This document shows, piece by piece, positions 46,219 to 48,423 of a DNA stretch of 64,000 nucleotides; positions within the stretch are counted from its first letter, which is position 1; each line of letters opens with the position of its first letter. The stretch covers positions 1,183,001 to 1,247,000 of the forward strand of contig NZ_JONW01000005.1 in the NCBI RefSeq assembly GCF_000712075.1, in the 5' to 3' direction. Below the pieces are notes generated by a model that ran no database searches, had not been told where the DNA came from, and worked only from the letters and a program-made list of their open reading frames with translations. Origin of the DNA: Caulobacter sp. UNC358MFTsu5.1. Its GTDB lineage: Bacteria; Pseudomonadota; Alphaproteobacteria; Caulobacterales; Caulobacteraceae. The translations under genes and the position numbers were made by a program.

Positions 46219-46348
46219 GGCGAAAACTCCAGAAGGTTAACAAACCAGAGCCCCTGCGTGCTTTCGCGCGCTTTCGCCTTCAACGCGAGCTTGGCCATGA
46301 AGATTCTTCGGGCGATTGCCAGACGCGGCCGCCCGCCCTAGCTTTCGG

Positions 46349-46364
46349 TCAAACAAGTGTTTGA
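46349..46364. promoter_or_regulatory. CAAAC-N4-GTTTG operator ahead of the HAD gene
   Basis: TCAAAC-AAGT-GTTTGA, perfect 6-bp arms with a 4-base spacer, ending 7 bases before the start codon. It matches the C/GAAAC-N4-GTTTG/C box of PsrA-like TetR regulators. A second copy precedes the short-chain dehydrogenase gene at 47506. Confidence 0.7.
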
Positions 46365-46371
46365 GGCGGAC

Positions 46372-47013
46372 ATGGCGATCGAGGCGGTGATCTGGGATTT
46401 CGGCGGGGTGTTCACGACCTCGCCGTTCGAGGCCTTCCGGCGGTTCGAGCAGCAGCGCGGCCTGCCGCAGGACTTCATCCGCCGGGTCAACGCCGCCGAT
46501 CCCGACGCCAACGCCTGGGCCCTGTTCGAGCGCAACGAGATCGACGCGGCCGCCTTCGACGCCCTGTTCCTGGAGGAGGCCACGCGTCTGGGCCACGCCG
46601 TGCGCGGCGCCGAGGTGCTGCCCCTGCTGTCGGGCGACGTGCGGCCGCGCGTGGTGGCGGCGCTGAAGGCCTGCAAGGCGCGGTTCAAGGTGGGCTGCAT
46701 CACCAACAACGTCGTCACCGGCCACGGCACGGGCATGGCCGGCTCGGCGCAGAAGGCCGAACAGATCGCCGAGATCTTCGCCCAGTTCGACGCGGTGATC
46801 GAAAGCTCCAAGGCCGGGGTCCGCAAGCCCGACCCGCGCATCTACGAAATGATGTGCGAGCTGATCGGCGTCGCCCCGGAGCGTTGCGTCTACCTCGACG
46901 ACCTGGGGGTCAACTGCAAGCCGGCGGCGGCCCTGGGCATGACGGCCATCAAGGTCTCGACCGAGGACCAGTTGCTGGCGGACCTTGCGGCGGCGACCGG
47001 TTTGGCGTTCTGA
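46372..47013 (+). CDS. HAD-superfamily hydrolase (sEH-N/ACAD10-like)
   Basis: 213 residues. The nucleophile aspartate is D9 in [10 protein letters not shown]; the second acid of DxD is glycine, as in the subgroup related to the N-terminal domain of ACAD10. Motif II lies in CITNNV, the lysine and aspartates in [13 protein letters not shown] and [10 protein letters not shown]. The ATG at 46372 is used because GAGGCGG precedes it and the operator ends before it. It is followed 32 bases later by a pterin dehydratase gene. A role near acyl-CoA breakdown is suggested by the operator shared with the dehydrogenase. Confidence 0.82.
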
Positions 47014-47045
47014 GGGGGAAACCCTTTCCGCCGCAGGAGCCCGCC

Positions 47046-47333
47046 ATGACCCGCCCCGCCAAGATCGGCGCCGCCGCCGCCCTCTCCCAACTGCAGGGCT
47101 GGGCCTCGGTCGCCGACAAGGACGCCATCGGCAAGACCTTCAAGTTCACCGACTTCAACGCCGCCTTCGGCTTCATGACCCGCGTGGCCCTGATGGCCGA
47201 CAAGCTGGACCACCATCCGGAGTGGTTCAACGTCTACAACCGCGTCGAGGTGGTGCTGACGACGCACGACGCCGACGGGGTCAGCGAGCTGGACGTGACG
47301 ATGGCGCGGTTCATGGACGAGATCGCGGCCTAG
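47046..47333 (+). CDS. phhB: Pterin-4a-carbinolamine dehydratase
   Basis: 95 residues. The active-site block is [24 protein letters not shown], with two histidines and a third in THD. It recycles 4a-hydroxy-tetrahydropterin formed by phenylalanine hydroxylase, and a homologue is also a dimerisation cofactor. No phenylalanine hydroxylase gene is in the window. It follows the HAD gene by 32 bases and probably shares its promoter. Confidence 0.9.
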
Positions 47334-47463
47334 CGCCCCCTCCGTCGGGCTGCGCCCGCCACCTCCCCCGTTGCACGGGGGAGGAGAGGCTGGTTCGCTT
47401 CCTCCTCACCCGCGAAGCGGGAGAGGTGGCGCGCTGCGAATACGCAGCGCGACGGAGGGGGCG
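47334..47463. repeat. Intergenic palindromic repeat, family B-like
   Basis: Outer arms CGCCCCCTCCGTCG (from 47334) and complement (ending 47463), with CCTCCCCCGTTGCACGGGGG and GCTGCG/CGCAGC stems inside. It lies after phhB and before the operator of the dehydrogenase gene, both read rightward. Confidence 0.8.
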
Positions 47464-47505
47464 TCCAGAGCCGCCGTTTCCCCCTTCCGTCCCCGCCCCA
47501 TCCAG

Positions 47506-47523
47506 TTCAAACTAGCGTTTGAA
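47506..47523. promoter_or_regulatory. CAAAC-N4-GTTTG operator ahead of the dehydrogenase
   Basis: TTCAAAC-TAGC-GTTTGAA, perfect 7-bp arms with a 4-base spacer, 22 bases before the start codon of the short-chain dehydrogenase. It has the same core as the site at 46349, so one TetR-type regulator, not in the window, probably controls both transcripts. Confidence 0.75.
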
Positions 47524-47545
47524 TTATAACGGGAGGACGCCGCAG

Positions 47546-48331
47546 ATGGCGCAGAGCACGGGCCGGGTCGCCGGCAAGAAGGCCTTCATCACGGGCGGCG
47601 CCCAGGGCCTGGGCGCGGCGGCCGCGCGGCGTCTGGCCGAGGAAGGCGCCAAGGTCAGCCTCGCCGACATCAACTTCGCCGGGGCCCAGGCCGTGACCGA
47701 CGAGATCAACGCCGCCCACGGGGCCGGCACGGCCTTCGCCTTCCAGCTGGACGTCACCCAGGAAGACCAGTGGATCGAGGCCCTGGAGAAGGCCGACGCG
47801 GCCATGGGCGGGATCTCGGTGCTGCTCAACAACGCCGGCGTCGCGGGCGACAAGCCGCTGGAGCAGATGGAGTTCGACCTCTGGAAGAAGATCATGTCGA
47901 TCAATGTCGACAGCGTCTTCCTGGGGGCCAAGCACGCCCTGAAGTACATGCGCGCGCACCAGCCGGGCTCGATCATCAACATCAGCTCGATCGCCGGCCT
48001 GATCGCCAACCACAATTCGCCGGCCTACAACGCCTCCAAGGCGGGCGTTTGGCTGCTCAGCAAGAACATCGGCCTCTACTGCGCCAAGATGGGGCTGGAT
48101 ATCCGCTCCAACTCGATCCACCCGACCTTCATCGACACCCCGATCCTGGACCCGCTGAGCCAGCGCCTGGGCAAGGAGGAGGCCCACGCCAAGCTGGGCC
48201 GTCAGATCCCGCTGGGCCACATCGGCGAGCCGAACGACATCGCCAACGCCGTGCTCTACCTGGCCAGCGACGAGAGCAAGTTCATGACCGGCGCCGAGCT
48301 GAAGCTGGACGGCGGGATTTCGGCGATGTGA
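47546..48331 (+). CDS. Short-chain dehydrogenase/reductase
   Basis: 261 residues, classical SDR. The NAD loop is TGGAQGLG, the NNAG motif follows, S is in NISSIAGL, and the catalytic Y-x3-K is YNASK. The acid residue after strand 2 (LADINF) favours NAD over NADP. The ATG at 47546 follows GGGAGG. Its operator matches that of fatty-acid and branched-chain degradation regulators, so a 3-hydroxyacyl or hydroxysteroid substrate is plausible but unproven. Confidence 0.88.
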   Translation: MAQSTGRVAGKKAFITGGAQGLGAAAARRLAEEGAKVSLADINFAGAQAVTDEINAAHGAGTAFAFQLDVTQEDQWIEALEKADAAMGGISVLLNNAGVAGDKPLEQMEFDLWKKIMSINVDSVFLGAKHALKYMRAHQPGSIINISSIAGLIANHNSPAYNASKAGVWLLSKNIGLYCAKMGLDIRSNSIHPTFIDTPILDPLSQRLGKEEAHAKLGRQIPLGHIGEPNDIANAVLYLASDESKFMTGAELKLDGGISAM

Positions 48332-48336
48332 TCATC

Positions 48337-48415
48337 GGGGACATGCCCTTGCGGCGTGTCCCCATCCGCTAGCGTCGAGCCAAGACTTGGGGACACGCCG
48401 CAAGCGCATGTCCCC
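48337..48415. repeat. Palindromic repeat between the dehydrogenase gene and regA
   Basis: Arms GGGGACATGCCCTTGCGGCG (from 48337) and near-complement (48388-48415), 28 bases each with one mismatch, spacer 23. It lies between convergent genes and ends 8 bases before regA. It likely acts as a bidirectional terminator. Confidence 0.8.
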
Positions 48416-48423
48416 GGTCCCGC

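Follow-up and report, generated by a model that had tools for sequence, protein, structure and literature searches.

The window, meaning the whole stretch of 64,000 nucleotides from Caulobacter sp. UNC358MFTsu5.1 that was analysed, contains a HAD gene, phhB and a short-chain dehydrogenase (SDR) gene, together with two palindromes that we treat as putative operators. The features are as follows.

46338..46345, + strand: predicted -10-like box CTAGCTTT, just 5' of operator 1
46349..46364, no strand assigned: putative operator 1, TCAAAC-aagt-GTTTGA (TCAAACaagtGTTTGA), 7 bp upstream of the HAD ATG
46372..47013, + strand: HAD protein, TIGR02247 ('epoxide hydrolase N-terminal domain-like phosphatase'), motif I D-F-G rather than D-x-D
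47046..47333, + strand: phhB, pterin-4a-carbinolamine dehydratase, between the HAD gene and operator 2
47506..47523, no strand assigned: putative operator 2, TTCAAAC-tagc-GTTTGAA (TTCAAACtagcGTTTGAA)
47525..47530, + strand: predicted -10-like box TATAAC, abutting operator 2
47546..48331, + strand: short-chain dehydrogenase, NF005473

An earlier note on this DNA had reported two palindromes at these places, in front of genes that it called HAD, phhB and short-chain dehydrogenase. The gene calls were correct, and a motif scan of the window found CAAAC-N4-GTTTG without mismatch at 46350-46363 and 47508-47521. At least two matches with no more than one mismatch occurred in 9 of 100 shuffles of the window, so that the window-only statistic is weak; we accepted the palindromes as real because the counts in the whole genome and the conservation in relatives decide the matter. 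CTAG, CTAA or CTAC was present within 14 nt 5' of the site in the 17 HAD promoters of the genus that retain it, and AATTATAA or a similar sequence was found 3' of the counterpart of operator 2 in some SDR orthologues. Inspection by eye also revealed, 3' of phhB and 5' of operator 2, a GC-rich stretch (47333-47465) with the look of an inverted repeat or of a dispersed intergenic element, and an inverted repeat, GGGGACATG...CATGTCCCC, at window positions 48336-48420, 3' of the SDR gene, which is a possible terminator.

Across the 5.4 Mb genome (13 contigs), TCAAAC-N4-GTTTGA occurred 5 times and its reversed control 0 times. The genome-wide scan for CAAAC-N4-GTTTG suggested in the earlier note also came out above control, with 60 places at up to one mismatch versus 24 for the control, and 10 of these were exact (50 of the 60 places were listed individually, 10 were not). 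None of the 10 exact sites falls within a predicted gene, and each is no farther than 77 bp 5' of a predicted start codon, a placement that covers about 6.5% of the sampled sequence; this is a rough figure, as sampling was centred on motif sites and genes were called with a simple gene finder.

We then compared 80 related contigs, mostly titled Caulobacter, Phenylobacterium or Caulobacteraceae, whose loci are related and so not independent. A site with zero or one mismatch was found 5' of HAD orthologues in 42 of 79 loci (one of the 80 had too little upstream sequence), against 0 of 1580 mononucleotide shuffles. The SDR orthologues had such a site, with a variable centre, in 34 of 49 loci, against 0 of 980 mononucleotide shuffles; the other 31 of the 80 were without an SDR at 60% identity or more having enough upstream sequence. 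In the 77 pooled sites the outer T was kept in 77 and the outer A in 75, neither being part of the search, and the centre varied; these sites were chosen at zero or one mismatch, so the constancy of CAAAC and GTTTG is partly by construction. Within the genus, 17 of 24 loci had the HAD site and 7 were without it (loci L234-L236 and L266 were omitted from the genus operator scan). A one-mismatch HAD site was present in 9 of 18 Phenylobacterium-titled loci, and none of the 11 such loci with an SDR had a site 5' of that gene. At zero or one mismatch, no HAD site was found in 6 loci of other families, nor in 18 loci of the phylum sample (15 outside the family, 2 in other genera of the family and 1 in the same genus; 3 repeat genomes of the genus scan). 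Chance palindromes would fit the weak statistic within the window, and are excluded for practical purposes by the genome-wide counts, the proximity to start codons and the conservation in relatives; we regard this explanation as extremely improbable.

The genes behind the exact sites were varied. They encode an acyl-CoA dehydrogenase, a saccharopine-dehydrogenase-like protein, a thiolase of the pcaF type, a hotdog thioesterase whose divergent neighbour has no Pfam match, a DUF2855 protein whose divergent neighbour is an EamA transporter, a beta-lactamase-type hydrolase, a small secreted-looking protein, the HAD protein of the window and two SDRs, one of them that of the window. Acyl-CoA-type genes thus stand behind several, not all, of the 10 exact sites. 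The earlier note had spoken of a small regulon defined by the two sites of the window; since the genome has 10 exact sites and the window just two of these, this description had to be given up. Among the 40 listed one-mismatch places, 14 were picked by eye and one more was looked at. The genes behind the 14 encode an APH-type kinase, a second acyl-CoA dehydrogenase, a thiolase and SDRs, as well as a quinone oxidoreductase, a P450, a flavin monooxygenase, a DUF3089 hydrolase-like protein, a GST and further products; one of the 14 falls inside a coding region. These places are weaker than the exact ones, and some will be chance. As the regulon is broad, the shared operator does not tie the HAD protein to the kinase.

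The DUF2855 gene with the exact operator is at G000:C5:673316 in the window's genome. In a family that we take to be sphingomonad-like (f9), a DUF2855 gene was found 5' of the HAD gene, directly in locus L322 and with one small gene between in L318, and CoA-transferase genes lie downstream in both loci. Because it precedes the HAD gene in those two loci and bears the exact operator here, DUF2855 could be a further member of the same pathway. We found no literature on DUF2855 among open-licence papers.

Two of the genes behind these sites belong to the ACAD10/11 class. The acyl-CoA dehydrogenase with the exact operator upstream (C5:413366-414670) matched mouse ACAD11 (8v3u) with an E-value of 5.6e-138, and after four matches of this class the next was at 5.2e-41. 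The stretch LADGPDEVH is identical in the two proteins, and we presume that the catalytic Asp of ACAD10/11 lies within it. That a catalytic Asp is conserved in ACAD10/11 is stated in the available excerpts of two reports (PMC11342911, PMC12440821). The ACAD11-like kinase (C5:925659-926735) has a one-mismatch site 11 bp 5' of its start and is the genome's best APH-type match; its match to 3dxp had an E-value of 1.6e-122 and that to the kinase half of mouse ACAD11 one of 1.5e-79, and it contains the motifs HGDYRLDN (HGD..LDN) and DWE. The dehydrogenase, kinase and HAD genes are located on the same contig (G000:C5) at about 413, 926 and 1229 kb, the first two about 510 kb apart and each with an operator-like site. 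Of the 27 genus loci scanned for the dehydrogenase gene, 26 had the operator 5' of it, 25 without mismatch, and the one miss is a 57% identical paralogue. A site upstream of the kinase gene was found in 28 of 29 genus loci (16 with one mismatch, 12 with two, never exact), in counts made without a shuffle control. In a further genome, G013 (L234, L235), two overlapping matches together make up the ACAD10/11-type dehydrogenase, indicating either a pseudogene or a sequencing error. The earlier note had left the functions of the HAD protein and SDR open; they stay tentative and are narrowed by the genes with the same operator elsewhere, this dehydrogenase and, with an imperfect site, this kinase, which point towards 4-hydroxyacyl-CoA.

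The earlier note had also proposed a PsrA-type operator, a TetR-family repressor and an acyl-CoA theme, and this proposal held up well. The operator arms are those of the PsrA footprint TTCAAACN4GTTTGAA quoted in PMC13104628, and the window sites fit the PsrA motif C/GAAAC-N2-4-GTTTG/C given in the same excerpted text. For published PsrA, which binds TTCAAACN4GTTTGAA, that text names long-chain fatty acids as the signal. We read 41 distinct TetR proteins from 45 matches in the genome (for two of the 45 no gene was called), and a PsrA-like TetR at G000:C10:272273-272953 is the leading candidate for the regulator. This protein had the best fit to the PsrA query (37% over 158 aa, with a query sequence entered by hand), and its best PDB match was 2fbq (E 3.3e-20; helix AGVNLASVNYHFGSK vs AGVNLAAVNYHFGSK), which we take to be PsrA itself. 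NCBIfam ranks PsrA (NF053516) first for it, yet at 110.4 bits against a cut-off of 300, and we therefore call it PsrA-like, not PsrA. Its own upstream region in Caulobacter contains a weak, conserved site about 27 bp upstream with 3 mismatches, a score reached in 0-7 of 100 shuffles, and through this site the TetR may regulate its own gene. Another match, 186-187 bp upstream, was not conserved and was dropped. No TetR gene adjoins an operator in this genome, the closest pair among the 45 TetR matches and 50 listed motif places being about 2.6 kb apart.

Several other genomic TetRs, among them the PsrA-like proteins at C5:549883, C5:66486, C5:541771, C13:66127 and C6:392992, also matched the PsrA query, at E-values from 7e-23 to 2e-12 with the hand-entered query, and one of these could read the operator instead. 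We consider this rather improbable, as the VNYHFGSK recognition helix was found only in the C10 protein (match at C10:272369) among the 41 distinct TetRs read, and a relative of this protein faces a dehydrogenase-kinase operon across a doubled operator. The latter arrangement was seen in another alphaproteobacterial family (f11), in 7 of 7 loci (L337, L338, L343-L347). The doubled operator, TTCAAAC-N4-GTTTCATAC-N4-GTTTGAA or near variants (9318-9348 in L337), consists of two overlapping operators that form a larger palindrome. The L337 TetR is 42% identical to the C10 protein, and both TetRs score far under the NCBIfam PsrA cut-off (110 and 98 vs 300). By their gene arrangement, the f11 loci link a putative regulator, its predicted operator and the enzyme pair independently of Caulobacter. 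In ten dehydrogenase loci of other genera and families (L334-L336, L339-L342, L348-L350; including two from the family to which the window belongs) no site with zero or one mismatch was found within 400 bp 5' of the gene, which speaks against a wider rule.

Together, these comparisons make it likely that both window sites are operators of the PsrA-like TetR, and that its Caulobacter regulon covers acyl-CoA catabolism including 4-hydroxyacyl-CoA breakdown. Because the f11 TetR faces the dehydrogenase-kinase operon across the doubled operator, a single PsrA-like repressor probably controls 4-hydroxyacyl-CoA breakdown in this Caulobacter. A PsrA-like Caulobacter regulon with such a branch is, as a prediction from sites, their conservation, protein families and gene context, well supported.

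The HAD protein is the point of interest in this regulon. Its TIGR02247 score is 248 bits against a cut-off of 125.4, and it is the sole match above the cut-off among 5 in the genome. A Caulobacter vibrioides genome used as control likewise contains a HAD scoring above this cut-off. Human ACAD10 is, we assume, a member of the same model. The HAD motif I reads DFGGV in 110 of 111 distinct orthologues, where the second Asp of DxD is absent; the first Asp is retained in 110, ITNN in 110 and LDD in all 111. ACAD10 combines a HAD domain, an APH-type kinase and an ACAD domain in one gene, according to excerpts of three papers (PMC11342911, PMC12440821, PMC2223070). As far as the excerpted account goes, its kinase phosphorylates 4-hydroxyacyl-CoA and its ACAD domain makes 2-enoyl-CoA, and its HAD domain, in which just the first Asp of DxD is left, keeps the kinase in check in a role described as tentative and non-catalytic (PMC11342911).

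In a sample of 299 genomes of the phylum, 19 carried the HAD gene, 85 the dehydrogenase gene, 82 the kinase gene and 80 both of the latter. All 19 HAD genomes had both partners, and the hypergeometric value of 2.3e-12 for this co-occurrence ignores relatedness and depends on match thresholds chosen by the analyst. The kinase and dehydrogenase genes were within 4 kb of each other in 48 of the 80 genomes that have both. No bacterial HAD fusion was seen, in that no HAD open frame in the 19 HAD genomes exceeded 350 aa, and a search for HAD on plasmids gave no match. The 18 HAD neighbourhoods of the phylum sample contained no HAD-kinase-ACAD cluster. Neither in these nor in the 80 related loci did a kinase or ACAD10/11-type gene lie beside the HAD gene, though one of the 80 had a 29% ACAD about 9 kb off. 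The order HAD-phhB-SDR recurs in many related loci.

These observations bear on three readings of the HAD protein. It may be a housekeeping or lipid phosphatase without special link to the kinase or dehydrogenase, HAD-phhB and SDR being ordinary members of a general PsrA-like fatty-acid regulon. The 10 exact sites before varied genes agree with this, as do the position of the HAD gene beside neither partner elsewhere, the restriction of its operator to Caulobacteraceae among the loci scanned, and its nearest solved relatives, the bifunctional soluble epoxide hydrolases. Against it stand the presence of both partners in every HAD genome of the sample (with relatedness ignored) and the loss of the second Asp of motif I, as reported for ACAD10; we regard it as a serious possibility, short of an even chance. 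An active phosphatase on 4-phosphoacyl-CoA or lipid phosphates, reversing the kinase, would fit the retained first Asp, ITNN and LDD. E. coli YihX (8pno), a weak relative of the HAD protein (E 1.1e-6), is active with a D-x-G motif. However, the ACAD10 HAD domain had negligible activity on 4-phosphohydroxyhexanoyl-CoA in the excerpted report (PMC11342911), and we think such a phosphatase unlikely. We put forward tentatively, as a possible if somewhat doubtful reading by analogy, that the window HAD corresponds to the HAD domain of ACAD10 and is a regulatory subunit without phosphatase activity that restrains the free kinase; the Caulobacter genes would then represent ACAD10 in three pieces under a PsrA-like operator, possibly in a pre-fusion state.

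A working model of the regulon with its 4-hydroxyacyl-CoA branch can be outlined. Without fatty-acid ligand, a repressor dimer would occupy TTCAAAC-N4-GTTTGAA beside or over the transcription start and block it, and a long-chain acyl ligand would release the repressor; we infer both the binding and the ligand from the likeness to PsrA. The kinase would phosphorylate 4-hydroxyacyl-CoA, and the dehydrogenase would remove the phosphate to yield 2-enoyl-CoA for beta-oxidation. The HAD protein would be a partner of the kinase and would most likely curb its activity, as reported for the HAD domain of ACAD10. Three things taken together suggest this link: the operator that the genes have in common in Caulobacter, the nesting of the HAD genomes within those having both partners, and the parallel with ACAD10. 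Among solved structures the SDR is closest to R-specific alcohol dehydrogenases, and our guess is that it may convert 4-oxo and (R)-4-hydroxyacyl-CoA into each other. The ACAD10 kinase favours the R form about fourfold in the excerpted report (PMC11342911).

We thus propose a PsrA-like Caulobacter regulon having an ACAD10/11-type branch, of which we found no plain description in the open-licence literature. Human ACAD10 enables the burning of unusual 4-hydroxy fatty acids. With separate HAD, kinase and dehydrogenase genes under one predicted operator, each protein could be removed or mixed in vitro, which would make the HAD question directly testable.

Three known systems invite comparison, each through published text available in part. 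PsrA regulons have been described in 12 taxa, some of those in Proteobacteria being in RegPrecise (PMC5343134). The PsrA regulon of Pseudomonas and other Proteobacteria (PMC13104628, PMC5343134) shares with the Caulobacter system the sequence TTCAAACN4GTTTGAA, a TetR-family regulator, a near-identical recognition helix and a fatty-acid theme. In contrast, the Caulobacter regulator, at 37% identity over 158 aa to the hand-entered query, falls under the NCBIfam cut-off, and its predicted targets include an ACAD10/11-type dehydrogenase, a kinase and a stand-alone HAD. The lva operon of Pseudomonas putida (LvaA kinase, LvaC ACAD; via PMC11342911, PMC12440821) likewise provides a kinase and an ACAD for 4-hydroxyacyl-CoA, whereas the Caulobacter genes are dispersed and include a HAD; the ACAD10 HAD-like domain is itself described, in the excerpt of PMC12440821, as without homology to any lva protein. 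All three parts of mammalian ACAD10 are present in Caulobacter, the kinase and ACAD being close to the halves of mouse ACAD11 and the HAD keeping only the first Asp of DxD, a likeness by motif and assumed TIGR02247 membership. However, what is one gene in mammals is three separate genes in Caulobacter, about 300-820 kb apart.
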